The notes under the pieces were generated by a model. That model was not told the origin of the DNA. It worked only from the letters and a program-made list of their open reading frames with translations, and searched no databases. The position numbers and the translations under genes were made by a program. Below, in pieces: positions 28,671-63,935 of a DNA stretch of 64,000 nucleotides (within the stretch, counting starts at the first letter, position 1; the number at the start of each line of letters is the position of its first letter). The stretch is from positions 4,296,501-4,360,500 of the forward strand of contig NZ_CP048000.1 in assembly GCF_009931695.1 (NCBI RefSeq). Reading direction: 5' to 3'. This stretch comes from Anaerocolumna sedimenticola. Its GTDB lineage: Bacteria; Bacillota; Clostridia; Lachnospirales; Lachnospiraceae.

Positions 28671-28671
28671 A

Positions 28672-28826: not shown

Positions 28827-28859
28827 GGCTATAGCTATAATATTTTCCAAGCTACAGCC
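28827..28859 (-). terminator. Terminator after decayed recombinase
   Basis: On the minus strand GGCTGTAGCT pairs with AGCTATAGCC and TTATTTTTTT follows. Confidence 0.75.
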
Positions 28860-28879
28860 TCTGCCTTTAATAATCAATC

Positions 28880-29743: not shown

Positions 29744-30685
29744 CTAACTTATATATCAATTAAATTTTAATCTAGCATATACTATTATAAAGGTCTTATA
29801 AGAGGATTTTACTTTATGGAAATATACGTAGTCCAGTTTGGCGATGATATTGAGTCAATTGCTAATAGATATGGAATTTCTGTTGAAAGATTGATAAGTG
29901 ATAATGGTTTGACAAATCCCCACGCATTGGTTGTTGGTCAAGCTTTAGTTATCCTTTACCCTAAAGAGACTTATACTGTTAAGTCAGGTGATACTTTAGA
30001 ATCTATTGCTGAACGTAATGAAATTTCTTTAATGCAGTTATTAAGAAACAACCCATTTTTATATGATAGAGAATATATCTACCAAGATGAAACCTTAGTA
30101 ATAAGTTACAATACAGTAAGGGATATACAAACTAATAGCTATACTGATTTTTCCTTAAATCAAGATATATTATCAAGGGCTTTGCCTTATTTAACTTACA
30201 TCTCCATTTATAGCTATCGAATTGCTAATTCAGGTATAATTAGTAATTATGATGATACTACTATAATTAAAATGGCAAAACAATATGATACAATACCTTT
30301 ATTAACGATCTCTGCACTTTCACCAGTAGGGGAAATAAATATCGAGTTTCTTTATGAGTTATTATTGGATAATGAATTGCATGAAAAATTGATTAATGAA
30401 GTGCTTCAAATCTTAAGGTCTAAAGGATATATGGGGGCTAATTTAATAATTACTGAGATAACTCATTACAATCAGAGTATATACATTAATATCATTGAAA
30501 AGATATCAAAGATATTAAGGAGTAATGGATACATTTTTATGATTACTATTAGTCCTGATGAATTAGCTGATATAGCTCTTAATTATAATAGAATAAGTTT
30601 ATTTGTAGATATGATAATATACCGGGAGGCCGTTTCAAAGTCCGTGTAAACTCAAAAAACTGATATAAAATTTTAATAGTTATTT

Positions 30686-30720
30686 ATGGGCAAGGCCATT
30701 TTTCAGTGGATCTTGCCCAT
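30686..30720. terminator. Hairpin at the 3' side of the IS256 transposase
   Basis: ATGGGCAAG pairs with CTTGCCCAT, 17-nt loop. It lies between the transposase stop and the IS end. Confidence 0.5.
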
Positions 30721-30798
30721 GTTTGTATTATAAATCTGTTTTTGGGGTTGTCAAGTAAAACTCCCCTTTGGCAGTTTTAGTACCTTGGTTTATATGCT

Positions 30799-32040
30799 TT
30801 AGGATAACCTTTCTTCAAAGAATATCTCCAACTGGGAGTGAATCTGTCCCCAGTCCTGACGGTGTCCGGTCCATTTTTTCGTAATGTCCATCGTGGCTAG
30901 ATACAGCATTTTCAGAAGGCTGTCATCTGTGGGAAATACGGTTTTGCTTTTGGTGACTTTCCGGAGCTGCCGGTTAAAACCCTCTATGGCATTAGTGGTA
31001 TAGATGAGCCTTCGTACGGCTTCGGGATATTTGAAATACGTTGAAAGGTTAACCCAGCTGTCCCTCCAAGACTTTGCTATTTTAGGGTATTTTCCTCCCC
31101 ATTTTTGATCAAACGAATCCAGTTCGTTTAATGCGATATCTTCCGTAGGAGCCGCATACACACGTTTTAAATCAATCATGAGTGTCTTGATATCTTTGTA
31201 GGATACAAACTTTGTTGTATTTCGGATTTGATGAATAATGCACTGTTGAATTTCTGTTCTTGGAAAGACCGCGTCAATGGCCTGGGGGAATCCGGTCAGA
31301 CCGTCTACGCATGCGATCAGTATATCCCTCACTCCACGATTCTTTAAACCATTCATGATGGAAAGCCAGAATTTTGCACTTTCATTTTCTCCGACATACA
31401 TACCAAGAACATCTTTGTGTCCGCTCATATCAATACCGATGGCTATATAGACAGCTTTTTTTACAATTCGTCCTTCGCTTCTTACATGAAAATGTATAGC
31501 ATCCATGAATACCACAGCATATATTTCTTCCAGTGGTCGTTCCTGCCATTCCTTCACTATAGGGAGTATTTTATCTGTGATTCGGCTGATGGTACTGTCT
31601 GAAATATCAACTCCATAAAGCTCCTGCATATGGCTCTCAATATCTCCAGTAGTCATTCCTTTGGCATACATGGATATGATTTTTTCCTCCATGTCCTGGG
31701 TCAGAGTGTTTTGATATTTCTTAACGATTTTAGGCTCAAACTCCCCATTTCGATCACGGGGTACGTCCAATTCCATGTCACCATAACTGGTATGTAATGT
31801 TTTTGAGTTATATCCATTTCTGCTGTTATCTGTTTCTTTGTTCCTGAAATCATACTTGGAGTAACCCAGTTCCTCATCCATTTCGCCATCCAGGCTGCCT
31901 TCTAGGATAACTGACATCATTTCTCTCATGAGAGCATTTACGTCTGTTCCATTCTTAACCGGATTTTCTTTTAGGTACCCATTAACCATTTCGCGTAGTG
32001 CTTGTCTTTCGGGAGATTCGTCCCTTCTTCTCTTTGCCAT
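30799..32040 (-). CDS. IS256-family transposase
   Basis: 413 residues, usual length. Mutator-type DDE enzyme: VVFMDAIHFHVR carries the first Asp, IACVDGLTGFPQAI the second, and the C-terminal RRLIYTTNAIEGFNRQLRK region the Glu. The frame is intact from ATG to stop, so the element may still be active. Confidence 0.95.
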   Translation of the reverse strand: MAKRRRDESPERQALREMVNGYLKENPVKNGTDVNALMREMMSVILEGSLDGEMDEELGYSKYDFRNKETDNSRNGYNSKTLHTSYGDMELDVPRDRNGEFEPKIVKKYQNTLTQDMEEKIISMYAKGMTTGDIESHMQELYGVDISDSTISRITDKILPIVKEWQERPLEEIYAVVFMDAIHFHVRSEGRIVKKAVYIAIGIDMSGHKDVLGMYVGENESAKFWLSIMNGLKNRGVRDILIACVDGLTGFPQAIDAVFPRTEIQQCIIHQIRNTTKFVSYKDIKTLMIDLKRVYAAPTEDIALNELDSFDQKWGGKYPKIAKSWRDSWVNLSTYFKYPEAVRRLIYTTNAIEGFNRQLRKVTKSKTVFPTDDSLLKMLYLATMDITKKWTGHRQDWGQIHSQLEIFFEERLS

Positions 32041-32748
32041 AAAATAAAACCTCCAAACTGAGTAATTTTATTTTACATCAGTTTGAAGGTTTACACAAAC
32101 TTTGGGATACTCCCTATACCGGCAAAATATTTGGCCTCTACAAAAAAAGCCACCAGCACCAATAAGTAGCATTTCATTAATTAGACCTTTTATTGAAAAT
32201 GTTATTAGTAACGTTTCACCTAAACTTATTTCTATTGGAAAACCTTTAGTTGGACTTGATTGGATTATTCCATATAAGCCTGATTCAAAAGCAAATTTAA
32301 TATCACTTAATACTATGTTTAATTTAGCATATGAACAAAATGCAGTTATTCAATTTGATGAAATGTCTCAAACACCATATTTTTATTATAACAGGCCTAC
32401 AGAAGGTGCTAATGAACAACATATAGTATGGTTTACAGATGCCAGAAGTATAAAGGCATTAAGTGATGTTATCCTCGATTATGATATAGGAAGTACGGGT
32501 GGATGGAATTTAAGAAGTAATTATCAACCGTTATTTTCAATCATTGCAGCAACATTCAACGTTATTAAGTTACCAATTCAGTAAGTTTTCTAATTAATAA
32601 CTCACTGCCATACACTAATAATAAGTAACTATTTTACACTACCGTTATTTCATTAACTGCTCTTATTCCCAATTTGCTCATAAGACACTAACTGCTTCGC
32701 AAATTGGGAACTTTTATAATGGATTCATTGAATTTCATAAACTTCACT

Positions 32749-34329
32749 TTAATATTTTTTTATTTCCACCCCATTCTTGAAGGTGACACGAATATCTTCC
32801 TTATTATAAACTGTTATGAAATCTACAAGGCTACTCCAAAGGCTTTTGTCAAATTCATTAATCATCCGTTCTTGTTTCTGTAGTTTTTTTATAAAGCTTT
32901 TCAGGATTTCTACCTTGGCTTTCTTATTCGATATCATTTCCGTTATCTTATCATACTCCCTTTTTCTAGCATCATATTGGTCAACCAGTTGATTGTAACG
33001 TCTCTGGTAAATCTCCTGATCCTGTACTGTATTAGCATTTTCATTGATGCAGTTCTGCATCATTTCCACCAGCACCTTAAGTTCTTCTTCGAAAGTGGTA
33101 AGTTGCTGTTCCAAACTCTCCGTATTGTAAAAGGTCTGGCAAAGTAATTTTACATTAGCAATAACTTTTTCTTTTTCAGTTATCAGCTGATTGACCGCTG
33201 ATATAAAAGATTCCTTGGCTTCCTCTTCTGTTATATGAGGTGTTTTACACTTCTTCTCATTATTAAATTTTTGATTGCAGCGATATATGACCTTACGATA
33301 CTTGTCATTGGAGTGCCATACCTTAGCACCATACCAACTGCCGCACTCTCCACATTTGATTTTTGATGCAAATAATCCAACACCACTGTATCTATTCTTC
33401 GCTTTGACTCGTTTCATAATCTCTACCTGTACTAAGTCAAATGTGGTTGGTTCTATGATTGCTTCATGATTATTTTCCACATAATACTGAGGAACTTCAC
33501 CCTCGTTCTTTTTCATTCTCTTGCTAAGAAAATCTACGGTGTAGTATTTCTGCAAAAGTGCATCGCCCTTATATTTCTCATTCGTAAGGATACTTTCCAC
33601 AGTTTTTGCATGCCATTTTTTTTGGCCTCCAGGTGTCTCAGCTCCAACTTCCATTAGCCTTAGAGATATTTTATAGTAGGACATTCCTTCAAGAAAACAT
33701 TTATAAATATATCTTACAATCTTAGCTTGTTCTTCATTTACTACAAATCCACCATTGGGGCCTCTGTCATAGCCAAGGAACCTTTTATAGGCTACGCTCG
33801 CTTTACCGTCTGCAAAACGTTTCCTTTGTCCCCATGTGGTGTTCTCAGAAATGCTTCGACTTTCCTCTTGTGCCAAGGATGACATGATAGTAATAAGAAG
33901 TTCCCCTTTTGCATCAAGTGTCCATATATTTTCTTTCTCGAAATATATCTCTACACCCTTTTCTTTTAATTTTCTCACTGTCGTAAGACTATCTACCGTA
34001 TTTCGTGCAAATCGGCTAACCGATTTCGTTATGATAAGATCAATCTTTCCTTCTAAAGCATCTTCCACCATCTGTTTAAACCCTTCACGACGGGCAGTGC
34101 TTGTAGCTGAGATACCTTCATCGCTATACATTCCTACAAAGATCCAATCATCTCGGCTTTGAATGTAGCTCGAATAATAATCCATCTGTGCCTCATAACT
34201 GGTTTGTTGCTCTTCAAGTTCTGTTGATACTCTAGCATATCCCGCTACCCTTCGTTTCCTTGCATTACCAATTGGCTGAGCAGTAACTCTGCTTATGGTA
34301 GCCGGAATCGTGGTTACTCTCTTTGCCAT
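32749..34329 (-). CDS. Large serine recombinase 2
   Basis: 526 residues. Resolvase domain with catalytic Ser35 in GYARVSTE, YSDEGISATSTARR and SRFARNTVDSL; recombinase domain (about 185-300); zinc ribbon (CGECGSWYG ... CNQKF ... CKTPHI, about 325-370); coiled coil about 385-480. Such enzymes integrate or excise phages and transposons by a Ser-linked double-strand break. Overlaps the end of recombinase 1 by 16 nt, so the two are made together. Confidence 0.92.
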   Translation of the reverse strand: MAKRVTTIPATISRVTAQPIGNARKRRVAGYARVSTELEEQQTSYEAQMDYYSSYIQSRDDWIFVGMYSDEGISATSTARREGFKQMVEDALEGKIDLIITKSVSRFARNTVDSLTTVRKLKEKGVEIYFEKENIWTLDAKGELLITIMSSLAQEESRSISENTTWGQRKRFADGKASVAYKRFLGYDRGPNGGFVVNEEQAKIVRYIYKCFLEGMSYYKISLRLMEVGAETPGGQKKWHAKTVESILTNEKYKGDALLQKYYTVDFLSKRMKKNEGEVPQYYVENNHEAIIEPTTFDLVQVEIMKRVKAKNRYSGVGLFASKIKCGECGSWYGAKVWHSNDKYRKVIYRCNQKFNNEKKCKTPHITEEEAKESFISAVNQLITEKEKVIANVKLLCQTFYNTESLEQQLTTFEEELKVLVEMMQNCINENANTVQDQEIYQRRYNQLVDQYDARKREYDKITEMISNKKAKVEILKSFIKKLQKQERMINEFDKSLWSSLVDFITVYNKEDIRVTFKNGVEIKKY

Positions 34330-35884
34330 TCTAGTTTCCTCCCATCTTTAAGATCAAATATAGCTTTATCATCAAACAGGATAACCTCATCTACCTCTTG
34401 GATGAACCTCACTTCATAATTTGCCTTATCTCCTAGCAAGGCTACCGTAGCCTTTCTTAGCTCATCCTCATTTAATGATTTTAGATCGCAATAAGCCATT
34501 TTATGCTTTCTCTGGCCGTCACAAGTCCACCTCTCGTAATATTCCCGGATAGTTGTTTTGCTGTGAGCAATCGGATTTCTAATACATTTGGATCCGCATT
34601 TGCCACATTTAATCTTTCCAGTAAAGCACGTTCTACCCCTCGGCATTGTGGAATAATCCCTTGACCAGTTCTTTATCTTTCCGTTCGTAAAGTAAAATTC
34701 TATCCTATCATCGAAAACTAAGATCCTATCAATTTCCTTTAGAAATCGTTCTTCATCCAGGTCCTTATTTCCCAAAATATGTGCTGAAGCTGTCCGAAGT
34801 AAATCCTCATCGACCGGATTTAAATCACAGAATTTTATTCCCTTGGTTTCACGGGCATTGCATAACCATCTCTTATAAGAACTTCTTTCAGTTGTTTTGC
34901 TGTGAGTAATGTTCCGGCGGCTGCATTTATATCCGCATTTACCGCATTGGACTTTGCCAGTAAAGCAAGTAATCTGTTTGTTTTTGTTTGATGCAGTTTT
35001 GCCACGCTCCATACGAGCTTTCTGTACTTCTTGGAACAACACTTTACTGATAATCGGTTCGTGCGCTTCTTCCACCCGATACTTCGGCAATTCTCCATAA
35101 TTAAGAGTTCTCTTTCGTATCTTGGGTGAGTAGCTTTTTTGCAACACCAGGTTTCCAATGTAAATCTCATTTTTTAGAATATCTTTAATAGATGCCCTCG
35201 TTAGTGGATTTCCGTTTATCCCCACAACCCCTTTTTCATTAAGTAACTTAGGTAACTGCAGTGTTGAAGTGCCAGCAAGGTATTGCTCAAAAATAAACCT
35301 AACTGCTTCAGCTTCATCGGAAACAATTCTGTATTGGCCACCGTCCCATTCATAACCAAAGGCTCTGCTCGCTGAATGGGGTTCTCCTCTTTCAAACCCC
35401 TTTTTGATGGCCCATTTTATGTTCTCAGACATACTTCTGCTTTCTTCCTGTGCAAAGGATGCCAGAATGGTCAACAACAGTTCGCCATCCCCACTCATAG
35501 AGCTGATGTTTTCTCTTTCAAATCGCACCTCTACTCCAATGTCTTTCAGATGCCGGACTGTTTCCAGGAGGTCTAATGTGTTCCTTGCAAATCGGCTTAT
35601 AGACTTTGTAATTATAATGTCAATCTTTCCTGCGTCGCAGTCTGCAACAAGACGCTTGAAATTGTCACGTTTTTCTGTACTGGTACCAGTAATTCCTTCA
35701 TCAGCGTAGACACCAACATAAGTCCATTCAAGATTTTTTGTATTAAGGTGCTATAGTAACTAATCTGTGCTGAAAGGGAATGTAGTAGCACTTCCGAATC
35801 CCTAGATACACGAGCATAAGCTGCGACCCTTTTCTTTAGTTGTATCTTCGGTATAGCTACTCCTAATTTGCTGATTTTTCGCAT
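34314..35884 (-). CDS. Large serine recombinase 1 (frame broken in A6 run)
   Basis: The N-terminal piece (from 35884) has AAYARVSRDSEV with catalytic Ser27; the rest continues in another frame with WTYVGVYADEGITGTS and SRFARNTLDLLETV. Adding one A in the run at 35736-35741 joins them into 523 residues. The C-terminus is unusual: two tandem zinc-ribbon units, CFTGKVQCGKCGYKC and CFTGKIKCGKCGSKC, each followed by a similar tail. The TATATATCACTCTAAA motif lies 23 nt upstream. Confidence 0.87.
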
Positions 35885-35906
35885 GATATCGACTCCTTTC
35901 CAACAC

Positions 35907-35922
35907 TATATATCACTCTAAA
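35907..35922 (-). promoter_or_regulatory. 16-nt shared motif, copy 1 (recombinase 1)
   Basis: TATATATCACTCTAAA on the + strand, identical to copies at 58875 and 59927. Read toward the gene it is TTTAGAGTGATATATA, 22 nt before the recombinase ATG. Confidence 0.7.
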
Positions 35923-35928
35923 AGCCTA

Positions 35929-36105
35929 CTAATTCAAGTGAATGTCAAAGAATAATGTGCCGAAAATGGGGTGGTATTTCTCCAACATTATTGTATCAAA
36001 TTCATGATAATCCTCTTCGGATATCACCCCTTTTTCTAGCATTGATCTAGCAAGACTCATTGTGGTCTGATATAGCTTTTCATTTCTAAATTGATCTTCA
36101 CTCAT
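35929..36105 (-). CDS. Small recombinase-operon protein, SHOCT-like
   Basis: 58 residues from ATG 36105, which has GGAGGTGG at 6-nt spacing. The middle reads MSLARSMLEKGVISEEDYHEF, the SHOCT-type helix (leucine, basic, gly-isoleucine, acidic). It overlaps the upstream gene by 8 nt. Small SHOCT-like proteins often accompany recombinase clusters in Clostridia; role unknown. Confidence 0.7.
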   Translation of the reverse strand: MSEDQFRNEKLYQTTMSLARSMLEKGVISEEDYHEFDTIMLEKYHPIFGTLFFDIHLN

Positions 36106-36529
36106 CTTGGCCACCTCCAAATCGGTCAGCCACATAGCATTCATGGCTACAATACTTCCTACGGGAATTGCCATAGACCTTGAATTGCGTTTTACAGTGA
36201 ATACAGGTAAATTCATACACAGCTTTTCGCTTTACCTTATAAAGATTTTTGTTCCACCATTCCATTCTGCACTTATCAGAACAAAATTTCTTCTCTTTTC
36301 TACCTGGGTTTTGTTCTACAGAAACACCGCATTGCTTGCAAAAGTACATACCATTAGCTACTTGAACTTGCATTTTAGGTTTTTCCGCTGTTGCCTTTCC
36401 TGTCAGATTGTTTCTTCTACAAAAAGACTTTACTGTATTCTCTGAAATACCGAGCACTTGAGCAACCCTGATATATCCATACCCTTCAGCACGTAGTTTT
36501 GCAATTTGTAATTTCTGTTCTTTCGTCAT
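36098..36529 (-). CDS. HTH and zinc-finger protein of recombinase operon
   Basis: 143 residues. N-terminal helix-turn-helix resembling sigma/resolvase HTH (GYGYIRVAQVLGISENTVK, residues 16-35), then two Cys4 zinc-finger-like units: CKQCGV with FCSDKC, and CIHCKTQF with YCSHEC. Likely a DNA-binding accessory factor of the recombinases encoded next. First gene of the four-gene operon. Confidence 0.75.
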   Translation of the reverse strand: MTKEQKLQIAKLRAEGYGYIRVAQVLGISENTVKSFCRRNNLTGKATAEKPKMQVQVANGMYFCKQCGVSVEQNPGRKEKKFCSDKCRMEWWNKNLYKVKRKAVYEFTCIHCKTQFKVYGNSRRKYCSHECYVADRFGGGQDE

Positions 36530-36621
36530 TGAAATTGCACCTCCATTCGTTGAGGAATTACCCCTCTAACTTCCTAAGGACAGAAATTATTGATTTGGAC
36601 GGATATTCACAACAAAAAAAT

Positions 36622-36653
36622 AGCCGCCAAGTGAAATCAATCACCCAGCGGCT
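36622..36653 (-). terminator. Terminator after endolysin fragment
   Basis: AGCCGC with GCGGCT plus inner GTGA with TCAC, followed on the minus strand by seven T residues. Confidence 0.75.
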
Positions 36654-36663
36654 TAATAGAAAA

Positions 36664-36737
36664 TTATTCTTTTTTGATGAAAGCATCGGTAAATCCAGCA
36701 GCCTTGACTTTATCAAGAAGGTCTTCCGCATTTGATT
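36664..36737 (-). pseudogene. SPOR-domain end of a phage amidase
   Basis: SNAEDLLDKVKAAGFTDAFI and the KKE end match the C-terminal SPOR repeat of the amidase at 38388 (ANADAQLDKVKKLGFRDAVI). The catalytic part is absent, and the upstream part of the open frame (MIIISFLCTY) does not match. It keeps its terminator. Confidence 0.65.
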
Positions 36738-36812
36738 TAAAGAAAAGGAACTTGCTGATATATGTGCAAAGAAAAGAGATGATAATCATTGGACTCTCAT
36801 CTCCTATATAAG

Positions 36813-38108
36813 CTAATCAATTAGAACTTTTTCTATGTCATATTGTGAATTAATAATTAACCATAATTGTGGATTGTAAATCGTTATATTCCAGATGCCT
36901 GTTCCAAGTAAATCAAATTTAGATATCAATTCTAGTAATGCATTTATACTTCTTGCATCAATAAACCACACAATATGCTCGATTGAATTTCCATTACTAT
37001 TAACAGTATACCTATAAAAAGGTGTTTGAGATATTTCATCAAATTGTATAACTGCACCTACAGACCGTGCTAAATCAATGGCTCTATCATGAGTCAGTGA
37101 ATTAACACTAGAAATACCAGCAGAGAATGGGAGTTCCCAATCGTATCCGATGGTAGCTAATCCTGCAATAATTTTATCTGGTAATATGAATTCCAATAAA
37201 TATTCTAAATACACATTCATGTTGTAGATGGAACTTATTGGTGAAGGTGGATTAATACTCCTTGCCCATTCGAAATTCATAAAAATGATGTTATGAGCTA
37301 TTTGGTCTATAAGAGAATAACTCGCCCTTTCAAATATTATTTCATTATTCAAAACGGTTATATTAGGATTAATTATTGCAAATACTAAATACCCTTCTTC
37401 GTTTAATCTATTTTTTATTTTAGTATAATAATCTTCGTATATTTGTAGACTTGAAATACTTATATAATCAAACGATAGATTTATTCCATAATAACCTTTC
37501 GTTCTTAAGATTGAAAGGATGTTTTCAATTTGCTTATTCTGAAAATCTTCGTTCAATAATAGGTTATATGCAGTTCTTATATTAGCTTCACCTTGAATAG
37601 TTAATGTAGTTAATAACATAAGAGGTATAACACCGTAATCTTTTGTTATTTGAATAATTTCTGCATCATCATAATAAGAAATTATTTCACCTTCAATTGT
37701 TGCTGTATAGTTCAATACCGAAAGATAAGTTAGGTATGGTAATGTCCTCCTGAGGGTGTCTTTGTTTATATATGGAACCGTATTACCATGGGTTGTAATT
37801 TTACCTTTCTTATTATAATTTATAACAATTTTATCTCCTGGGTAGATATACTCTCTATCTGCAAGATATGGATTATTCTGTAATAATTGCATTACAGTCA
37901 CATTATGAAATTTAGCGATATCCATTAACGAATCACCATCTTTAACCGTATAAGTAAGTTCTGGGTATACGATAACAAGTGACTGTCCTATAACTAAGTC
38001 ATTTGGATTTTCTAATCCATTATCTTGAATTAAGATCGTCTCTGAGACTCCATAAAACTCAGCAATTGATTGTATGGTCTCACCTTGTTGCACTACATGT
38101 ATTATCAT
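36813..38108 (-). CDS. LysM-GH18 protein, paralogue 3
   Basis: 431 residues from ATG 38108 (GAGG upstream; an ATG 12 nt earlier is less well placed). Two LysM domains (3-48, 53-98) and a GH18-like barrel. The catalytic motif is GINLSFDY (208-215): Asp214 replaces the acid/base Glu. It shares the CWELPF-like ending phrases of paralogue 1 (YDWELPFSAGISS, VGAVIQFDEISQTPFYRY). Lies between the recombinase operon and the prophage lysis genes. Confidence 0.85.
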   Translation of the reverse strand: MIIHVVQQGETIQSIAEFYGVSETILIQDNGLENPNDLVIGQSLVIVYPELTYTVKDGDSLMDIAKFHNVTVMQLLQNNPYLADREYIYPGDKIVINYNKKGKITTHGNTVPYINKDTLRRTLPYLTYLSVLNYTATIEGEIISYYDDAEIIQITKDYGVIPLMLLTTLTIQGEANIRTAYNLLLNEDFQNKQIENILSILRTKGYYGINLSFDYISISSLQIYEDYYTKIKNRLNEEGYLVFAIINPNITVLNNEIIFERASYSLIDQIAHNIIFMNFEWARSINPPSPISSIYNMNVYLEYLLEFILPDKIIAGLATIGYDWELPFSAGISSVNSLTHDRAIDLARSVGAVIQFDEISQTPFYRYTVNSNGNSIEHIVWFIDARSINALLELISKFDLLGTGIWNITIYNPQLWLIINSQYDIEKVLID

Positions 38109-38344
38109 AAACAACCTCAAAATTCTTCATTTATTATTACTAATATATTCCTAATATTTTTAATATTTCCAATCTTCTTAAGTTTGTTATTCATTACAAT
38201 TGTAACGCATTAGATAAAATGAGATGCAACTTGCAGTTCTTCATTAATTGCGACCTCTTATTTGAATCCAACAATGAATTTATCATCCTGCGCCTCCATG
38301 CGGAAAACAACTTAACTTGTACGCCCAATACAAAGCATAAAAAT

Positions 38345-55595: not shown

Positions 55596-57203
55596 TTAGA
55601 ATACAATTAACCCTCGATTATCATAAACAGAATTGTTTGTTCCACCACGACGAATAGCTCTATCAAGAGCCATAATTGTTGCAACCGCACCATCTATCTT
55701 TTCCGTGCTCTTTTCCTTATCCGGCTTAATGTTTCCCGCCGGGTCAGTTCTAATAAAGATATTATCCATCATCCACCGAAGTACTGGGTGTCCACCGTGT
55801 GCAATTTTCTCTTCCAGTGTCAACTTCATCAACTCTTTCGTTGGTGGTGACATATCTTTAAATCCTTGACCGAATGGCACAACTGTTAATCCTAGACCTT
55901 CTAGGTTCTGCACCATCTGAACTGCACCCCAACGGTCGAAGGCAATTTCTCGAATGTTGTATTTAAGGCTTAACTCTTCTATAAAATTTTCAATGTAACC
56001 ATAATGCACTACATTTCCTTCTGTTGTCTTTAAGAAACCTTGTTTTTCCCATATATCATAGGGAACATGATCCCTTCTCACTCTTAGGTCGAGATTATCC
56101 TCTGGTATCCAAAAATGAGGAAGGATAATATACTTGTCATCTTCATACTCTGGTGGAAATACAAGAACAAATGCTGTTATATCCGTTGTTGATGATAAGT
56201 CCAATCCACCGTAGCATTGTCTACCTACAAAACTGTCAGGGTCTACTGCAAATGAACATTTATCCCATTTTTCCATAGGCATCCAACGTACGGATTGCTT
56301 CACCCATTGGTTTAACCGAAGTTGTCTGAATAAGTTTTCTTCTGCAGGGTTTTGCTTTGCATTTTCGCAAGCAATTTGTATCTTTTCAATATCTACCGTA
56401 ATGCCCATTGAGGGGTTGGCTTTTGCCCATACCTTCGGATCTGTCCAGTCATCAGCCTCATCGGCTCCATAAATGACTGGGTAGAATGTTGGGTCAACCT
56501 TTCGCCCTTCTAGGATATCCTTAGACTTTTGATGTACTTCATAGCATATTGAGTGCTGATCATTCCCGGCAGTCGTAATTAGAAAATACAGTGGTTGCTT
56601 TCTAGCATCTCCGGAACCATGAGTCATAACATCGAAAAGCTGTCGGTTTGGCTGAGCGTGTAACTCATCAAATACCACTCCATGAACATTTAAACCATGC
56701 TTTGTATATGCTTCAGCAGAAAGAACCTGATAGAAACTCCCAAGCGGTTTATACACTAATCTCTTTTGAGAAAGTACAGGTTTTATTCTAGCTTTTAACG
56801 CCGGACATTGCTCTACCATCTCAACAGCCACATCAAAAACAATGGATGCTTGCTGACGGTCAGAAGCACAGCCATAAACCTCTCCACCATGTTCAAAATC
56901 ACCGCAAGTAAGCAGTAGTGCTACTGCTGCCGCAAGTTCTGACTTTCCTTGCTTTTTAGCAATTTCAATATAAGCAGTATTAAACTGACGGTAGCCATTC
57001 GGCTTGATAACACCAAACAAATCTCGAATAATCTGTTCCTGCCAGTCAATCAATTCAAATGACTGACCGTACCACTCTCCCTTGGTGTGTTTTAAACAAT
57101 TTATAAAGGCTACTGCTGTATCAGCCGAATCCTGATTATAAACCGAACCATCTGCTTTGAAGATGGTCGGCTTGTATGTCTTTAGTTTTCGTATCGCCGC
57201 CAC
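55596..57203 (-). CDS. Terminase large subunit
   Basis: 535 residues. ATPase: Walker A-like IAKKQGKSELAA (about 80-90), Walker B VVFDELHAQ, then nuclease domain with YGGLDLSSTTDITA, FDRWGAVQMVQNL and the C-terminal KIDGAVATIMALDRAIR, the conserved metal-site region. Packages DNA together with the small subunit. Confidence 0.95.
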   Translation of the reverse strand: MAAIRKLKTYKPTIFKADGSVYNQDSADTAVAFINCLKHTKGEWYGQSFELIDWQEQIIRDLFGVIKPNGYRQFNTAYIEIAKKQGKSELAAAVALLLTCGDFEHGGEVYGCASDRQQASIVFDVAVEMVEQCPALKARIKPVLSQKRLVYKPLGSFYQVLSAEAYTKHGLNVHGVVFDELHAQPNRQLFDVMTHGSGDARKQPLYFLITTAGNDQHSICYEVHQKSKDILEGRKVDPTFYPVIYGADEADDWTDPKVWAKANPSMGITVDIEKIQIACENAKQNPAEENLFRQLRLNQWVKQSVRWMPMEKWDKCSFAVDPDSFVGRQCYGGLDLSSTTDITAFVLVFPPEYEDDKYIILPHFWIPEDNLDLRVRRDHVPYDIWEKQGFLKTTEGNVVHYGYIENFIEELSLKYNIREIAFDRWGAVQMVQNLEGLGLTVVPFGQGFKDMSPPTKELMKLTLEEKIAHGGHPVLRWMMDNIFIRTDPAGNIKPDKEKSTEKIDGAVATIMALDRAIRRGGTNNSVYDNRGLIVF

Positions 57204-57266: not shown

Positions 57267-57449
57267 CTATTCTCTGACTTCACCCGTAAGAATGAAGCGA
57301 ACATAATCATCTCTATGTTCAGATAGGTAATCAATCAATTCATAGTACCCATCACGTTCTGCAATATCGATAACAACAGGAATGTCAAACATATTTGTTT
57401 CTCCGGTATTTCGAATTGCTAGAATTTGATCCCTAATTTCTTCCGTCAT
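57267..57449 (-). CDS. DUF5049 family phage protein
   Basis: 60 residues, highly acidic: TEEIRDQILAIRNTGETNMF and YELIDYLSEHRDDYVRF. Matches my recollection of the DUF5049 family, often found in Firmicutes phages and plasmids beside DUF4314 genes; function unknown. Overlaps the cyclotransferase stop by 4 nt. Confidence 0.75.
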   Translation of the reverse strand: MTEEIRDQILAIRNTGETNMFDIPVVIDIAERDGYYELIDYLSEHRDDYVRFILTGEVRE

Positions 57450-57894
57450 TCTCCATCCTCCTCTGCAGAGTCGCTAACAGCGTTTCGTAAGATATCAACA
57501 TTAAAGTCTGCACTTTTATAGCCTTCTAAAATAGTACTGTAATAATAACAACTTGGTTGACCGAGTGGTCTTCCTTCATTCATAATATAAACCATTGTCG
57601 TCACGTATTTTTTATCTAGTCTTATCTTAAGTGTTTCCTTTCGATAAAGAAATGGCCATCCTTCATAACGGTCAAGTGCTGTCTCATCTGCGGGTGTGAT
57701 TTCCCATACAAGTACTGGCACACTCCCCCCTTATAAGGCTCAATGGTTGCCACAGCTCCCGCATGTGAGCCTCTAAAAAGTAACCGATAATTATTTATTT
57801 TACTTGCTCCGACCACCTTTGCTGTGGGGCATCTATTTGCCATCTGCTCCAAATTAAGATTGGAGCCGTAGGCAATGTAAAGTTTATTGCTCAT
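57446..57894 (-). CDS. Gamma-glutamylcyclotransferase-like (AIG2) protein (frame broken in G6 run)
   Basis: The first frame starts YIAYGSNLNLEQM, the signature of the GGCT fold; the second has the catalytic-Glu helix LDRYEGWPFLYRKE. One extra G in the run 57725-57730 (C6 on + strand) gives YKGGSVPVLVWEITP and 149 residues, family-typical. GGCT enzymes release 5-oxoproline from gamma-glutamyl amides. Sits 36 nt after an amidoligase gene. Confidence 0.85.
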
Positions 57895-57930
57895 TGTAAT
57901 CCTCCTTTGGTTTTGAGTTTATTGGATTGT

Positions 57931-58830
57931 TCAGGCTGCCCGAAATCGCCAAGCTGCAGAACCCGAAAGCGCTGCTGTTAGATGCTCTCTGCAGTTAGCA
58001 AACTCCTCTCCAATTAAGCCAATGCGGTTTAAGTAAGTCCTCATTGCAAACTTCTCGTTTTCAACCTGTGGTTTCTTAGCAGATGCACATTTTTGCGTTA
58101 AAGCTTGGTTGTTAATGGCTAGAGCAAGAACGATGTAGCTTCTTATCTTACCCGCATGAAGTTCACTATTAAATCCCCTAAGCTCAACCGTATGGTTTCC
58201 TGTGAAAAAACTGTGGAGGTTTAAGAAGTGGTATCGGCTGTTGTGGTAATGCGTACTTTTGCTTTCGCTGTAGCCCTCATACCAAATATCCTCAAGCTGT
58301 CGCATGGTTTTAGGCTTTTTGCGATTCATTTTCTCGACCAGAATGCTATCCATCTTTTTGCAGTAGCTCATTCTCTGAGGTGCTATCTGCAGTGCCTTGT
58401 AGAAAAGGTCATTCTTGCTTGCAATGATATTTACAAAATTTCGTATGCTTCTTGGTGTATGGTCTGCCCCATCAAGGTGAATGTGAATTCCGCAAGTTGA
58501 ATTTGTAAATGCTCCTGCGTGACGAAGCTGCCTAACCAATTCTTGCAATGTTTCTATATCTTCTCGGTAAGTAAGTATCGGACTAACCAGCTCAACGCTG
58601 TATTCTCTTCCAGCAGAAACTGTTCTTCCCCTTTCTTTCCTTTGGCAATTAATGCTGCCATCGTACATTACTTTCCAAACCCTACCGTCCGCTGTTATTA
58701 CCTTCTTGGTGTCGTAATATGTTCCACCCTCCGAATAAGTTCCTTGTAAAAATTCTGCTACCACTTTGGCTGCCTTTTCTCTTGTAATTCCTGTGAACTC
58801 AATCTCAATTCCGAAATTTGCTCTTAACAT
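57931..58830 (-). CDS. Amidoligase-family enzyme with C-terminal VENEK module
   Basis: 299 residues. Amidoligase (glutamine-synthetase-like/COOH-NH2 ligase) signature: GIEIEFTGIT at the start, TCGIHIHLDG in the middle and HTVELRGFNSEL near the end, with metal/ATP-binding acids and His in place. Residues 255-299 (VENEKFAMRTYLNRIGLIG ... LSGSAAWRF) form a separate module that is also found at the C-terminus of the gene at 59205. Would form a peptide or isopeptide-type amide bond; the acceptor is unknown. Confidence 0.8.
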   Translation of the reverse strand: MLRANFGIEIEFTGITREKAAKVVAEFLQGTYSEGGTYYDTKKVITADGRVWKVMYDGSINCQRKERGRTVSAGREYSVELVSPILTYREDIETLQELVRQLRHAGAFTNSTCGIHIHLDGADHTPRSIRNFVNIIASKNDLFYKALQIAPQRMSYCKKMDSILVEKMNRKKPKTMRQLEDIWYEGYSESKSTHYHNSRYHFLNLHSFFTGNHTVELRGFNSELHAGKIRSYIVLALAINNQALTQKCASAKKPQVENEKFAMRTYLNRIGLIGEEFANCREHLTAALSGSAAWRFRAA

Positions 58831-58874
58831 TGTTTTTCTCTCCTTTTAAAGTGTGTATGTCCTTTCGGCATGTA

Positions 58875-58890
58875 TATATATCACTCTAAA
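58875..58890 (-). promoter_or_regulatory. 16-nt shared motif, copy 2 (amidoligase)
   Basis: Identical TATATATCACTCTAAA, 44 nt upstream of the amidoligase start; a GGAGAG ribosome site follows. Confidence 0.7.
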
Positions 58891-58977
58891 AGGGTTATAT
58901 ATCAAGACAATTCACCGATATATCGCGGCATAATCTACACAATCTTTTTGTACATTTCCGTGGCTAAAATGTGTAGT

Positions 58978-59205
58978 TTACTCTTCGATTTTCCTACATG
59001 AGTCCTCGCCAAAAACCACTCCTAGAGAACCTCCCCTATCCCATTTCACATGAATGGTACCAATATCATCAACACTGGTAACTGTACCTTTATCACCTGG
59101 TATTAGTTTCGTATAAGGATCATTCATTTCAATAAGAACCACTCTCGCTCCAGGTGTGTAAGAATCCCTTAAGCCTTTTAATGTTTCAGCTGATATTCCT
59201 CTCAC
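58978..59205 (-). CDS. DUF4314 family phage protein
   Basis: 75 residues: YTPGARVVLIEMNDPYTKLIPGDKG and IHVKWDRGGSLGVVFG, split into a KOW/SH3-like small barrel as in DUF4314. Widespread in Firmicutes phages and mobile elements; role unknown. Starts on the last base of the upstream gene's stop region. Confidence 0.85.
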   Translation of the reverse strand: MRGISAETLKGLRDSYTPGARVVLIEMNDPYTKLIPGDKGTVTSVDDIGTIHVKWDRGGSLGVVFGEDSCRKIEE

Positions 59206-59894
59206 TATTGTTCCACCTCCTCAAGCTTAGATGGTGTACTTTTAAATGCAGAACTTCCTGTTAGCTTCGAAAGTAGAATCTTTCGCACTTTCTTATATTC
59301 CGAACCGATAAAACCAAGGCGAAGAAGGAAGCAGCGGAAGGCATATTTCTCATTCTCTACTTCCTTTGCCGTTGCAGTTATTCTCACCTGTGTCTTAGCC
59401 ATCTCACATATTGCTGTAATAAAATGTGTATAAGCCTTAACCTCATCTGCACTTGAGTCAAAGGGAAACCAAGGAAAGCGAAATGTTTCTTCAGTCTGCT
59501 CAATCGGAAGGGCTTCAACACCGAGTGCTTTCTTTATAAGAGCTCCTTTGCTTTGAATGAGCTTATCAAGATTTGCTATAGCAGTGTCAGTAAAGCCTTC
59601 CTTCGGTATCTCAATTGCAAGCAAGTCAGAGGCGTTTGTGTTGCCCTGTGTTGCGTTTTCAGGCTCTTCAAAGGCAAACCCGCGACCAACAAGTTTATCG
59701 AGCAGTATTTCCACCGTTTCGCTGTCTGTGCGGTCATCAAATATAAGTGTTCCTTCTTTATCCACCGCAAAGACATCAATATCATAAATGAATGTCGGTG
59801 CTCCTCTATAAACTGGCTTTACTTCAAGGATCTCACCGATTGCAGTAACGAATGCTTTTCGTTCACTCCCTGAACGATTAAATCGTATTTTCAT
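59205..59894 (-). CDS. Uncharacterised phage protein with C-terminal VENEK module
   Basis: 229 residues from ATG 59894 (AGGTGG upstream; the earlier ATG at 59957 lies inside the promoter motif region). The N-terminus (MKIRFNRSGSERKAFVTAIG, VYRGAPTFIYDIDVF) resembles a phage family sometimes labelled 'virulence-related'. The last 40 residues (EVENEKYAFRCFLLRLGFIG ... LTGSSAF) parallel those of the amidoligase. Function unknown. Confidence 0.75.
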   Translation of the reverse strand: MKIRFNRSGSERKAFVTAIGEILEVKPVYRGAPTFIYDIDVFAVDKEGTLIFDDRTDSETVEILLDKLVGRGFAFEEPENATQGNTNASDLLAIEIPKEGFTDTAIANLDKLIQSKGALIKKALGVEALPIEQTEETFRFPWFPFDSSADEVKAYTHFITAICEMAKTQVRITATAKEVENEKYAFRCFLLRLGFIGSEYKKVRKILLSKLTGSSAFKSTPSKLEEVEQ

Positions 59895-59926
59895 ATTCCT
59901 TATACCACCTTTCTTTTTGGTAGTGT

Positions 59927-59942
59927 TATATATCACTCTAAA
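59927..59942 (-). promoter_or_regulatory. 16-nt shared motif, copy 3
   Basis: Identical TATATATCACTCTAAA, 32 nt upstream of ATG 59894. Confidence 0.7.
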
Positions 59943-60011
59943 CCAAGTAAATAGCAAGTGGTATGTAGCTTATATTTTACATTCTACTATTTACACAAAA
60001 CTGTAGTTGTT

Positions 60012-61931
60012 TCATGAATTAAGTTCTACAATACCTGCAAGTACAAAGCAAACGCATGGCAAGGCAACACCATTGCCCCACATTTTATATTCCGCTGAAT
60101 CCGAGTGAGGATGTTGTAACCATTTAATAATTTGCTTTCTACTTTTTGGCTTCTTAGCTTTCCCTATTATCCTTCGGTGTGTTTCAAATACATCCATCCA
60201 GAAAGCAATATCTTCTTCCGTAGGATCTTTTGTTTCAAGATCACTGCACCACCAATCCGGGAATCCTTGAAGTCTCGCACATTCTGTAGGTGTCAGCCTT
60301 CTTACGATATACTCAGGCTCTACAATATGATAATCGCCACTGAAGGCTTCCTGATTACCAAGCCACTGCTTCGAACCCATACTGGCAGCAATTGTTCCAA
60401 ACACTTCTTTGCCAGATGCTGTTTTTACAGCATTAATCAAAGGTGGGTCTTTATAATCCGTAGCCACAAGTGTATTTGCAAGCTCTGTTTCTGCGCTGGT
60501 AAAGAAGGATGCCTTACTGGACGAATAAGTTGGCGTTGCAACCGCACTCGGCCCCTGCGCATTTAGTGTTGAAGAGATGCCTTCATCGTTTATACCTAAG
60601 TTTCTTGCAAAGTTCTGACCACAATTAAAGCTTTCTCTATCAATGGCATAGATTACAGCGTGTTTATCTACGGTATTTAACGTGAAAGAGATATCCTCAC
60701 TTAAGCCATCCCCTTGTGGACCATTGCAGTCTTTCCTTCCAATCATAGAGCCTTGCAGTGCAACCACAGCAATACCGCCTTGATTACAGGAAGGATTACC
60801 TCCGTTACAATCCACCGTGCGTGAAGTATCTGCCTCATAGATACCGCTGTAGGGGTTATCAGATTTCATAGAGTTGCTATCCTTAGCACAAATTCCAAAA
60901 GCCGTAGGTACAAATAAGGTCTGATCATTATTACAAGAAATCGTGGCAGATTTATTATCCTGTATCAAAGCTCCTTTACCGCCACCTTCACAGCCACACC
61001 GTATTTTTAATGTCTTTGGTGTTTCCATTACAAAAGGTTGATTATTACCACCCGTACCAAAAGTAGCAAGAACTGTCTGCGCTGTTTCCAGCGGACCCAC
61101 ATACCGACTGTCCTGGGAGTGGTTTTCAAATACCAGTGGAGGGTGGTTTGATTTAGCACGAAGGGTGCTAGTCATATCCTCTGTGACATCCATACGATTC
61201 CCACCTTGGTCATTTAAGCAGGTCGTGCCTGTTTCTCCAGTGCCACCTTTAATATTGGTGGTAGTTCCTTCCCACGGCTTGATGCTCTGCGAAGAATCCC
61301 TTGACAAGCCTTCGGACTTAAATAATATTTTTCCGGCACTCCTACCTGTAAAATCTGCGACAAGGTAGATACGTTTTCTTCGTTGGGGTACTCCCCAGTA
61401 TTGCGCATCAATTGTTCTCCAGGCGATGGAGTAATCTTCTCCCACGATTTCTCCTGCACTAAGCCATTTGTTAGGCTTAGGAATAGATATGGTTTTATCT
61501 TTAATCCCTGTGATGCTTTCGAGGACTGCCCTAAAGTCCTCTCCTTTGTTTGAAGAGAATGCTCCGGGGACATTTTCCCACACAATAAATCTTGGATATT
61601 GTCCATTCGTTTTGCACCTCATTTCCTTAACAATTCGGATTGCTTCATAAAAAAGGACGGATTGCTCTCCGTCCAAACCAGCTCTTTTTCCTGCTACACT
61701 CATATCGGTACATGGTGAACCGAAGGTAATTATATCTACAGGCGGGAGCTGTGCACCGTTTAGTTTGCTGATATCTCCAAAATGCTTCATCTGTGGGATA
61801 CGTTTGGTCGTTACCCTGATTGGGAATGGTTCAATTTCGGATGCCCATAAAGGTTCGATGCCACAGAGAATGCCTCCTAATTCAAATCCACCACTGCCTG
61901 AAAACAGTGAGCCGAGGGTTAGTTTATTCAT
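60012..61931 (-). CDS. C5-cytosine DNA methyltransferase (phage)
   Basis: 639 residues, longer than usual. Motif I LFSGSGGFELGG, motif IV GSPCTDMSVAG with the catalytic Cys (PCT in place of the common PCQ), motif VI VWENVPGAF, motif VIII WRTIDAQYWGVPQRRKRIYLV, and C-terminal RRLTPTECARLQGFPDW. The 250-residue centre has repeated TLN/TLRA and GGNxxxxNQGG phrases, typical of phage enzymes with several target-recognition segments. Protects phage DNA from host restriction. Confidence 0.92.
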   Translation of the reverse strand: MNKLTLGSLFSGSGGFELGGILCGIEPLWASEIEPFPIRVTTKRIPQMKHFGDISKLNGAQLPPVDIITFGSPCTDMSVAGKRAGLDGEQSVLFYEAIRIVKEMRCKTNGQYPRFIVWENVPGAFSSNKGEDFRAVLESITGIKDKTISIPKPNKWLSAGEIVGEDYSIAWRTIDAQYWGVPQRRKRIYLVADFTGRSAGKILFKSEGLSRDSSQSIKPWEGTTTNIKGGTGETGTTCLNDQGGNRMDVTEDMTSTLRAKSNHPPLVFENHSQDSRYVGPLETAQTVLATFGTGGNNQPFVMETPKTLKIRCGCEGGGKGALIQDNKSATISCNNDQTLFVPTAFGICAKDSNSMKSDNPYSGIYEADTSRTVDCNGGNPSCNQGGIAVVALQGSMIGRKDCNGPQGDGLSEDISFTLNTVDKHAVIYAIDRESFNCGQNFARNLGINDEGISSTLNAQGPSAVATPTYSSSKASFFTSAETELANTLVATDYKDPPLINAVKTASGKEVFGTIAASMGSKQWLGNQEAFSGDYHIVEPEYIVRRLTPTECARLQGFPDWWCSDLETKDPTEEDIAFWMDVFETHRRIIGKAKKPKSRKQIIKWLQHPHSDSAEYKMWGNGVALPCVCFVLAGIVELNS

Positions 61932-62529: not shown

Positions 62530-63783
62530 CTAATCCCTATCCTTTCCTTTAATATCCTTTGCTACATCTGCATAACACAGAACCTTACCATTGCGCTCAA
62601 CCGTTACATCATCACAATTCTTCTTAAACTCAACATAGCGTCTAAGTATGACAGATGCATACTTTTCGTCAAGCTCCATCATATAGCAAATTCTATCTGT
62701 TTGTTCGCAAGCAATCAGTGTACTTCCCGACCCACCAAATAAATCAAGAACCAAACCGTTTACCTGGCATGAATTCTTGATGGGGTAAGACAATAAATCA
62801 ATTGGTTTTGAAGTTGGATGGTTCTCATTTTTCTTCGGCTTATCAAAGGACCATATCGTACTTTCTGAACGTCCGGCATACCAGCGGTGTTTACCGCTTT
62901 TCAGCCAGCCATAGAGAATAGGTTCATGTTTCCACTGATATGGACTTCTGCCCATAACAAAGCTATTTTTCGCCCAAATACATACACCACTTAGGTGAAA
63001 CCCCGCATCAACAAATGCTTTTCTGAAATTCAAACCCTCAGTGTCAGCATGGAATATATATGCAGAGCCTCCGTCTTCAAGGCTATTTGCCATATTGGTA
63101 AAGGACATCAGCAGAAAATTATAAAACTCCTCCGACTTCATACTGTCATTCATGATAGTTAGCCCACTTGAACTCTTAAAGGACACGGCATACGGGGGAT
63201 CAGTAAGAATAAGATTTGCTTTTCTATCATTCATCAGATTTTTTACTGTCTCGGCTTCAGTTGCATCACCACACACAAGCCTGTGTCTACCAACAGTCCA
63301 TACATCACCTTTTTCAACGAACGCTGCTTCCTCAAGAGCCTTTGTTAATTCAAAGTTATCCTCAACAGCTTCACTCTTATTAATACCACTAAACAGATCA
63401 TCTAACTCTCCCACGTCAAAACCTGTAAGCGATACATCAAAGTCTGCACCTTGCAGATCTGTGATTAGAAGAGCTAGTTTATCTTTGTCCCAATCTCCAC
63501 TTATTTTATTAAGTGCAATATTAAGAGCCTTTTCCTTTTCTTCATCCATTTCAATGATTACGCATTCTACTTCTGTAATCCCCATATTTATCAGCACTTT
63601 CAAACGCTGATGACCACCAACAATTCTACCTGTGTTTTTGTTCCATATAATGGGTTCAACATATCCAAACTCTTCTAAAGAGCGTTTTAATTTCTCATAC
63701 TCTGGATCCCCCGGCTTTAGGTCCTTACGAGGGTTATATTCTGCGGGGAGCAATTCTGCTGTTTTCTTTTTTTCTATCTGCAT
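62530..63783 (-). CDS. ParB-domain DNA methyltransferase (N4/N6 type)
   Basis: 417 residues from ATG 63783 (MQIEKKKTAELLP), coupled by TAATG to the gene upstream. N-terminal ParB/Srx-like domain (about 1-110: NPRKDLKPGD, RIVGGHQRL), then methylase with DPPY in LILTDPPYAVSF (about residue 200) and SAM site DLFGGSGSTLIACEQ near the end, an order typical of the beta class. Modifies adenine or cytosine amino groups of phage DNA. Confidence 0.93.
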   Translation of the reverse strand: MQIEKKKTAELLPAEYNPRKDLKPGDPEYEKLKRSLEEFGYVEPIIWNKNTGRIVGGHQRLKVLINMGITEVECVIIEMDEEKEKALNIALNKISGDWDKDKLALLITDLQGADFDVSLTGFDVGELDDLFSGINKSEAVEDNFELTKALEEAAFVEKGDVWTVGRHRLVCGDATEAETVKNLMNDRKANLILTDPPYAVSFKSSSGLTIMNDSMKSEEFYNFLLMSFTNMANSLEDGGSAYIFHADTEGLNFRKAFVDAGFHLSGVCIWAKNSFVMGRSPYQWKHEPILYGWLKSGKHRWYAGRSESTIWSFDKPKKNENHPTSKPIDLLSYPIKNSCQVNGLVLDLFGGSGSTLIACEQTDRICYMMELDEKYASVILRRYVEFKKNCDDVTVERNGKVLCYADVAKDIKGKDRD

Positions 63784-63935
63784 TATTCGCATCTCCTCTC
63801 CAAAAGTTTATACAGTCCTTTATTTGCACCAACAATATCGCCTGCTAATGCTTGCCCGCGTATTGTTTTATACTGTTGCTTAGTTAATCTTTCTCTTTGC
63901 ATTTTTAAATGCTTTAGAAATATATAGAGAGTCAT
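63783..63935 (-). CDS. Small conserved phage protein (50 aa)
   Basis: MTLYIFLKHLKMQRERLTKQ, then IRGQALAGDIVGANKGLYKL. Basic, helical. It sits 7 nt after the upstream gene and its TAA overlaps the methyltransferase ATG, so it is in the same operon. I recognise the pattern from other Firmicutes prophages but know no function. Confidence 0.7.
   Translation of the reverse strand: MTLYIFLKHLKMQRERLTKQQYKTIRGQALAGDIVGANKGLYKLLERRCE

Follow-up and report, generated by a model that had tools for sequence, protein, structure and literature searches.

An amidoligase–gamma-glutamylcyclotransferase pair and a degenerate amidoligase paralogue in a prophage of Anaerocolumna sedimenticola

The window analysed here is a 64,000-nucleotide stretch of the Anaerocolumna sedimenticola genome (NZ_CP048000.1, positions 4,296,501 to 4,360,500), and the subject is a prophage gene set lying on its minus strand between DNA methyltransferase genes and the terminase gene TerL. 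Two of these genes code for enzymes, an amidoligase (AMID, 57931..58830, 299 aa) and a gamma-glutamylcyclotransferase (GGCT, here in two pieces, 57622..57894 and 57446..57721), and they are accompanied by an amidoligase-like protein termed VIRP (59205..59894, 229 aa; 'virulence-related protein' or 'amidoligase' in databases) and by the small proteins DUF4314 (58978..59205, 75 aa) and DUF5049 (57267..57449, 60 aa). An earlier note on this DNA took the set for one cassette; it behaves instead as two units, VIRP-DUF4314 and AMID-GGCT. Joint absence and co-variation show AMID and GGCT to be a strict pair, and profile comparison shows VIRP to be a full-length degenerate paralogue of AMID that is also found without the pair. 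On the best reading the AMID-GGCT unit is moron-like, with its own promoter-like element upstream in most relatives, and our leading, still tentative proposal is that these two genes form an accessory unit complete in itself, carried by phages of the Ca. Heliusviridae type, that sets and removes a gamma-glutamyl cap.

The loci compared in each test are related and were chosen from best-hit lists by similarity to AMID, GGCT or VIRP, so that P values (among them one of 2e-19), distances and correlations overstate the evidence. Co-occurrence of the two enzymes across phages, on which the earlier note had staked its pairing, is borne out. Bacterial loci carry GGCT within 2.5 kb downstream of AMID in 79/80 cases, the exception (L316) being cut by a contig end. 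Among 80 viral loci anchored on GGCT, many of them on the same contigs as the AMID-anchored viral set, AMID stands just upstream in 75 (74 by script and L123 by eye), three leave no room for it, and two (L140 and L145) do not have it. Annotated phages yield an AMID match in 47 records at an E-value of 1e-15 and in 75 at 1e-5 (60 of the 75 listed) and a GGCT match in 43 records at 1e-5; by manual comparison of the lists, both genes occur in 41 of these 43, and in MT839266 the end of AMID directly precedes GGCT. The two GGCT records without AMID both belong to Bacillus phage G (NC_023719, L163), which carries two adjacent GGCT genes, gp513 and gp514, and no amidoligase match among the matches listed. 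Pairing extends past the range of the tblastn search, since Arthrobacter phage Edmundo (L090) has a diverged GGACT-family gene (69.7 bits) directly before its amidoligase.

Of 80 VIRP-anchored viral loci, 67 reach TerL, and these hold both genes (27) or neither (40) and never one alone. Within 5 kb, GGCT tracks AMID completely (27/27 vs 0/40); the next family, of 129 aa, does so in 9/27 vs 0/40, and three others are commoner in loci lacking AMID (0 vs 19, 0 vs 13 and 1 vs 15, of 27 vs 40). Co-variation was measured in the 80 non-identical members of 118 loci with all six genes, many of them picked for similar AMIDs, which narrows the AMID distances. Pairwise distances of AMID and GGCT correlate there with r = 0.885, or 0.90 after removal of the contributions of TerL, methyltransferase and VIRP; for AMID and VIRP the values are 0.34 and, as a partial correlation, -0.10.

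The pair is dispensable and has been lost as a unit at least once. A locus 81-89% identical to the window on both flanks (L166) is without it and keeps, before DUF5049, a remnant of 19 codons resembling the GGCT end (E 1.9e-6), the only significant pair remnant in the 44 pair-less loci searched. A VIRP locus at 5.36 Mb of the host genome (L342), which is probably its third prophage, is without an amidoligase, and only 57 bp lie there between DUF4314 and DUF5049. These two loci show the pair to be absent from close relatives at the same site, as a moron would be. A candidate scar at 5.36 Mb, about seven codons like the GGCT end recognized by eye and overlapping a ribosome-binding site, was not counted. 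VIRP, for its part, adjoins DUF4314 whether AMID is present or not. The set is more than a chance grouping: all five families occur together in 63/80 viral loci fetched with AMID and in 41/80 bacterial loci, and VIRP, AMID and GGCT together in 75/80 and 66/80, respectively; beside AMID in the 80 bacterial loci are VIRP in 66, DUF4314 in 50 and DUF5049 in 55. Gene order is not fixed: VIRP lies 5' or 3' of the pair, and in a few loci the scoring put a DUF5049 open reading frame (ORF) between the two enzyme genes. The family of AMID is patchily distributed in the family of the host, occurring in 17/150 genomes, this one included.

That family is Amidoligase_2 (PF12224), which AMID matches with 262.4 bits (cut-off 22) over positions 3-244 of the 245 in the profile. 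AMID carries all 28 columns that are invariant among 17 sequences 28-90% identical to the window's, including E9, E11, D57, E80, H116, H118, N204, E216 and R218. For the active site, where the earlier note had looked to the conserved ATP and metal residues on alignment, the outcome is mixed: every invariant column is present, and the assignment of individual residues to ATP or metal met with no solved homologue by sequence and with a profile comparison to YbdK in which no more than a short segment around a TVExR motif is aligned, with a probability of 0.9%. Nor did the glutamate-cysteine-ligase family provide a bridge to solved enzymes, with no match above cut-off in 21 genomes. Between the window and L008, dN/dS is 0.039 for AMID and 0.140 for VIRP, and AMID is under purifying selection. 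The host genome also holds a decayed third amidoligase copy (G000:C1:1679132-1679661; L003, L004), about 45% identical and in separate pieces, the second with internal stops.

GGCT is written in the window as two overlapping ORFs in different frames, each matching its own part of PHROG 2520. The N-terminal piece (57622-57894, YGSN motif) does so at E 2.8e-15 over residues 1-54 and has no Pfam match; the C-terminal piece (57446-57721), with the catalytic-Glu motif LDRYEG, does so at E 1.6e-23 and also matches PF06094 (29.8 bits) and PF13772 (33.3 bits). The frame breaks close to six consecutive C at 57725-57730; the window holds three runs of this kind (C6/G6). Of 80 viral relatives fetched with AMID, 76 have GGCT in a single ORF and L014 has it split; a contig end cuts two more, and L034, whose stretch ends soon after AMID, has no match. 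A second prophage of the host genome, at 2.77 Mb, has AMID and GGCT in one ORF each. An IMG/VR record (L165) that is identical to the window over 9.8 kb shares the split and probably represents the same genome. A programmed frameshift was rejected, given the single frame in 76/80 viral relatives and the confinement of the split to the window, L165 and L014. Four more window genes look split, which hints at an indel-rich assembly: a portal gene (54330-55007/55010-55606), an OppF-like ATPase (6651-7310/7307-7627) and an M32 carboxypeptidase (13254-14045/14075-14761), in each of which both halves match the same Pfam model, and, by eye, the first serine recombinase (34314-35528/35612-35884). Of the four breaks scanned (GGCT, portal, OppF and M32), that of GGCT alone has a homopolymer of at least 5. 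Assembly error is a plausible but unproved cause of the split, and the window copy either is non-functional as written or owes its frameshift to such an error. The relatives' GGCT is that of a regular family member, aligning with positions 3-135 of human gamma-glutamylcyclotransferase (2pn7, 3cry) at E 7.8e-13 and sharing its catalytic Glu, which is invariant in 17/17 relatives and aligns with the human Glu that reads Gln in 3cry.

VIRP, the fifth protein of the set, had been called uncharacterised in the earlier note. It has no Pfam match, yet it matches the amidoligase family PHROG 2443 at E 1.4e-59, and hhalign of 32 VIRPs against 17 AMIDs gives E 7.5e-26 over the full length, or 1.9e-13 when the conserved C-terminal region is left out of both. 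Columns that are invariant in the enzyme are largely gone: among the 32 VIRPs, E9 is kept in 1, E11 in 2, D57 in 9, and C113, H116, H118, E216 and R218 in 0, and E80, R199 and N204 of AMID are without counterpart. R17, A243, R269 and G271, in turn, are kept in 29 to 31 of 32. The lost columns are read as catalytic because they are invariant in AMID, and VIRP is most likely a catalytically dead protein, as judged from its residues. Database records and papers that give two amidoligases (PMC11253131, PMC11318856) would then most likely have one enzyme and one pseudoenzyme, and the standing annotation of VIRP as 'amidoligase' is corrected by this finding.

VIRP and AMID are further linked by a 34-bp element that lies upstream of both on the minus strand, as CTTGCTAT-N8-TTTAGAGTGATATATAAC before VIRP (59925..59958) and as CTTGATAT-N8-TTTAGAGTGATATATATA before AMID (58873..58906); VIRP most likely starts at the ATG at 59894, and 59925-59958 is this upstream element. 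A third copy on the same strand (35905..35938) precedes the prophage's first serine recombinase, and the three window occurrences of TTTAGAGTGATATATA compare with 0.12 expected (up to 2 mismatches). Exact sites number four in the whole genome, and the fourth precedes the VIRP gene at 5.36 Mb; when 2 mismatches are tolerated the count is 20 vs 9 with the pattern reversed, so that chance accounts for most of the weaker sites. Across 316 loci the core, with 1 mismatch allowed, has 363 sites vs 1 to 7 for five shuffled motifs, and it lies upstream of 154/248 AMID and 156/266 VIRP copies, mostly 40-79 nt from the domain start, and upstream of DUF4314 in 1/256, GGCT in 0/254, TerL in 0/258, DUF5049 in 0/222, the ParB-type methyltransferase in 0/198 and the m5C methyltransferase in 0/105. 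For 164 distinct AMIDs with a VIRP, the element stands before AMID in 104, before VIRP in 90 and before neither in 51; in the 104 it is a candidate for the promoter of its own that a moron would have. It is found before AMID in 5/6 Bacilli loci examined and is missing in two loci from Spirochaete metagenome-assembled genomes (MAGs).

A scan of viral contigs for CTTGCTAT-N5to12-TTTAGAGTGATATATGTA, made independently of any gene, returned at least 118 loci and at least 127 sites, 112 with distinct surroundings, and the spacer is exactly 8 in 127/127 listed sites. The next gene at these 127 is VIRP (36), AMID (26), a DUF7698-type gene (22), a serine recombinase (12), a 120-aa family (9), another ORF (17) or none found (5). 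With its TTGCTA box and TG-A-TATATG box 19 bp apart, the element looks like a sigma-70-like promoter with an extended -10. In the stretches scanned it occurs only before VIRP and AMID in a Terrisporobacter phage, only before VIRP and an annotated DNA invertase, not AMID, in NatCom_19828, and only before VIRP and two small genes in a Gardnerella phage. At L228:8376 onwards, a small Nmad4-domain (nucleotide modification associated) protein lies behind it. A PHROG 36 regulator is encoded by this prophage and by the Terrisporobacter and Gardnerella phages, and a PHROG 1740 sigma factor by the latter two and, weakly (9e-5), here. This co-occurrence, and the position of the element before VIRP, AMID and recombinases, underlie a more speculative and rather doubtful proposal: the 34-bp CTTGCTAT-N8-TTTAGAGTGATATATGTA may be a promoter read by a sigma-like protein of the phage, either PHROG 1740 or the PHROG 36 regulator encoded close to the packaging genes, and may mark a hidden regulon in phages of Clostridia, Bacilli and Gardnerella that comprises serine recombinases, the dead amidoligase, AMID-GGCT and small proteins including DUF7698, DUF7678 and Nmad4, with AMID-GGCT as a takeover or counter-defence module that would reversibly gamma-glutamylate a conserved host target. 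The shared element offers a sequence handle on a putative phage accessory regulon and, if the proposal is true, could be used as bait for further accessory genes. A literature search for its letters returned one unrelated paper only.

The chemistry envisaged for the pair follows from GGCT, an enzyme type that acts on gamma-glutamyl groups whose alpha-amine is free and cyclises them to 5-oxoproline. At the expense of ATP, AMID would form an amide between an amine and the gamma-carboxyl of L-glutamate; GGCT would remove the glutamyl group again as 5-oxoproline. Because the alpha-amino group of the glutamate must be free for GGCT to act, the capped product would be a cytosolic small amine or protein amine that bears a terminal gamma-Glu, and no cap would be expected in wall stem peptides, where the D-Glu is acylated. 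A removable gamma-glutamyl cap is the simplest outcome of pairing GGCT with an ATP-dependent amide ligase, and as its target we favour a small amine or a protein that is conserved and serves host takeover or counter-defence.

Several points weigh against this proposal. To our knowledge, neither an enzyme activity nor a structure has been described for the family of AMID, the glutamyl specificity derives from GGCT alone, and the profile comparison of AMID with a glutamate ligase gave the very low probability quoted above. GGCT persists without AMID in L140 and L145, 6/47 AMID records have no GGCT match (four Taranis-type phages, PV036454 and one record cut by its end), and Pfam identifies neither of the two ORFs that come next after the amidoligase of Taranis as GGCT. 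The 28 weaker AMID records, found at 1e-5 but not at 1e-15, give no GGCT by tblastn, although a diverged gene is present in at least one. The relatedness and similarity-based choice of the loci likewise inflates the P values, distances and correlations given for the pair. Finally, the published view of such pairs is wall modification (PMC5498523, PMC11945000, PMC11253131, PMC11318856).

That view, in which the pair modifies peptidoglycan peptides or precursors of the host, for example to block superinfecting phages, is unlikely for the present locus, though it fares best among the alternatives to a gamma-glutamyl cap. The proposal of peptidoglycan-peptide modification reportedly goes back to Iyer and colleagues in 2009. 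In its favour, neither AMID nor GGCT has a signal peptide by eye, and wall precursors are cytosolic products. Wall modification is put forward for PSA-HP1, LUZ24, PaP3, phiEco32 and others (PMC5498523, PMC11945000), and the label has been carried over to prophages similar to this one (PMC11253131, PMC11318856). Wall cassettes, however, add an ATP-grasp enzyme, a second ligase and an amidotransferase or hydrolase, and none of these is seen here between the methyltransferases and TerL. The set thus lacks the enzymes that accompany the pair in the podovirus peptidoglycan cassettes, and VIRP, by its columns, is most likely no working second ligase. By its chemistry, GGCT would also be expected to leave stem peptides untouched, as their D-Glu is acylated. 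An Acholeplasmataceae MAG locus (L301; binning not verified) encodes an AMID 68% identical to that of the window, with the pair between a ParB-type methyltransferase and TerL, and neither a Mur ligase nor a transpeptidase was found by searches that were each positive in 10/14 control genomes; no VIRP was detected at this locus, whose 60-kb contig has two recombinases by eye and possible host genes. In phage PV036447, assigned to Anaeroplasmataceae (host assignment not verified), the AMID and GGCT matches are separated by 43 bp. Mur ligases are present, on the other hand, in another MAG, which is labelled Tenericutes (L317). Host wall peptide and phage DNA, both named in the earlier note as possible targets, and an encoded tag each meet some contrary evidence, none of it decisive.

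Lower still in probability is the reading of VIRP as a regulatory pseudoenzyme subunit of AMID, with the whole set working as one machine, a reading compatible with the other ones. Full-length paralogy, adjacency and the often identical upstream element favour it. VIRP nevertheless lacks AMID in 40/67 loci, its partial distance correlation with AMID is the slightly negative one given above, and 14/80 bacterial AMID loci have no VIRP in the stretch, some being cut by contig ends. Both occurrence and co-variation argue against an obligate subunit role.

Two further readings are improbable. In the first, the pair would be an auxiliary metabolic module for host nitrogen or amino-acid metabolism, as has been proposed for phage ZRK32, which carries an amidoligase, a glutamine amidotransferase, a glutathione synthase and GGCT and is reported to promote growth with nitrate or ammonium (PMC10945688). 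The effect is one of the whole phage and not of the genes, and the present stretch has none of the other partner genes. In the second, the pair would hypermodify phage DNA bases together with the neighbouring methyltransferases. DNA methyltransferases do adjoin the set, the prophage has a nucleoside 2-deoxyribosyltransferase-like gene (PHROG 355), and the Nmad4-domain protein of L228 lies behind the same type of element; against this, the ParB-type methyltransferase is about equally common with or without the pair (23/27 vs 31/40), and no known base-hypermodifying enzyme was found in the two groups of proteins scanned (12 and 10), which are part of the prophage genes. Pup ligase is a glutamine-synthetase-fold enzyme, and this, the small proteins flanking AMID and a single ORF for GGCT and DUF5049 in L085 are what can be said for AMID as a Pup-like peptide-tag ligase attaching DUF4314 or DUF5049, with GGCT as trimmer, a very improbable reading because the tag candidates occur without AMID (DUF4314 in 40/40 and DUF5049 in 30/40 loci), no small family closely tracks the pair within 5 kb as a dedicated tag should, and the ends of DUF4314 proteins are variable.

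The wider locus fits a known phage type. All five families that the earlier note placed between the methyltransferases and TerL are present by Pfam or PHROG, with GGCT in two ORFs instead of one, and DUF4314 (PF14192, 103 bits, cut-off 27) and DUF5049 (PF16468, 104 bits, cut-off 28.7) are secure. Coupling is looser than the 'nearly all' claimed: two of four junctions overlap, VIRP/DUF4314 and GGCT/DUF5049, the start of DUF5049 overlapping the stop of GGCT, and gaps of 147 bp and 36 bp separate DUF4314 from AMID and AMID from GGCT. In L085 (4747-5397) GGCT and DUF5049 are fused in a single continuous ORF, which suggests that DUF5049 works with GGCT. On the same strand, an m5C DNA methyltransferase (60012..61931; PF00145, 149 bits) and a ParB-type N4/N6 DNA methyltransferase (62530..63792; PF01555, 89 bits; PHROG 498, E 4e-173) lie upstream and TerL (55596..57203; PF20441, PF03354) downstream. 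TerS (L321:43-702; PHROG 83, PF05119), an HNH nuclease and replication genes follow past the window end, so the set lies between TerS and TerL. NCBIfam gave no family for any of 8 proteins compared with it, and PADLOC no convincing match for AMID, VIRP, DUF4314, DUF5049 or GGCT. In two phages without AMID-GGCT, from Streptococcus and Gardnerella (L160, L162), an annotated S-adenosylmethionine synthetase stands just before the methyltransferase and VIRP. At the prophage edge (window 27372-38120), several mutually similar LysM-type, glycosidase-like ORFs were noted, one seemingly interrupted, by eye, by a transposase (30799-32040).

By Pfam the prophage has DUF2800, PF10991 (which we take to be the former DUF2815), DNA polymerase A, SNF2 helicase, TerL, portal (in two pieces), Clp protease and capsid. 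It has 8/9 signature genes of Ca. Heliusviridae, all but the nuclease. The nine-gene list (PMC9226167) includes a VRR-NUC nuclease; the candidate here (L321:3419-3748) matches PHROG 93 'endonuclease' and has no Pfam match at 1e-5. The prophage thus has these signature genes in common with Ca. Heliusviridae/Heliusvirales phages, and differs in its two-piece portal and in a nuclease recognized only through PHROG 93.

Amidoligase-GGCT pairs of phages are already in print as predictions, mostly of wall modification, and the present locus is their minimal version. The earlier note's statement that none is characterised holds in that no biochemical test of such a pair was found in the literature searched; the pairing itself is well documented as a prediction in several reports (PMC5498523, PMC11945000, PMC5513430, PMC11253131, PMC11318856, PMC10945688). 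As far as was searched, with much subscription literature outside the search, the dead paralogue, the quantified pairing and the shared element are new. The closest likeness is Terrisporobacter phage TPDSL_ph1 (PP197246), which has ParB-type and m5C methyltransferases, VIRP, DUF4314, AMID and GGCT arranged as they are here, a short ORF after them, and the element before VIRP and AMID; its GGCT, however, is a single ORF, and DUF5049 was not detected. Where its description speaks of two amidoligases (PMC11253131), the first is VIRP, a member of the family without the catalytic columns. For prophages phi13 alpha and epsilon of Clostridium clostridioforme LM41, a table names two ORFs as 'amidoligase' of PHROG 2443 and, two ORF numbers on, a GGCT of PHROG 2520, which the available part of the report treats as annotation only, with neither a pairing test nor a pseudoenzyme reading (PMC11318856). 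Arthrobacter cluster AL phages, Edmundo among them, have an AIG2-like GGCT directly before the amidoligase (PMC5513430), so the order is reversed, and there a glutamine amidotransferase follows and AMID is about 28% identical. The podovirus cassettes of PSA-HP1, LUZ24, PaP3 and phiEco32 share amidoligase and GGCT with this prophage and carry an extra ATP-grasp enzyme, second ligase and amidotransferase or hydrolase (PMC5498523, PMC11945000), whereas the present set has two enzymes and a dead paralogue. This minimal two-gene version, present in phages of many Firmicutes, makes the predicted write-and-erase chemistry testable and bears on the wall idea.

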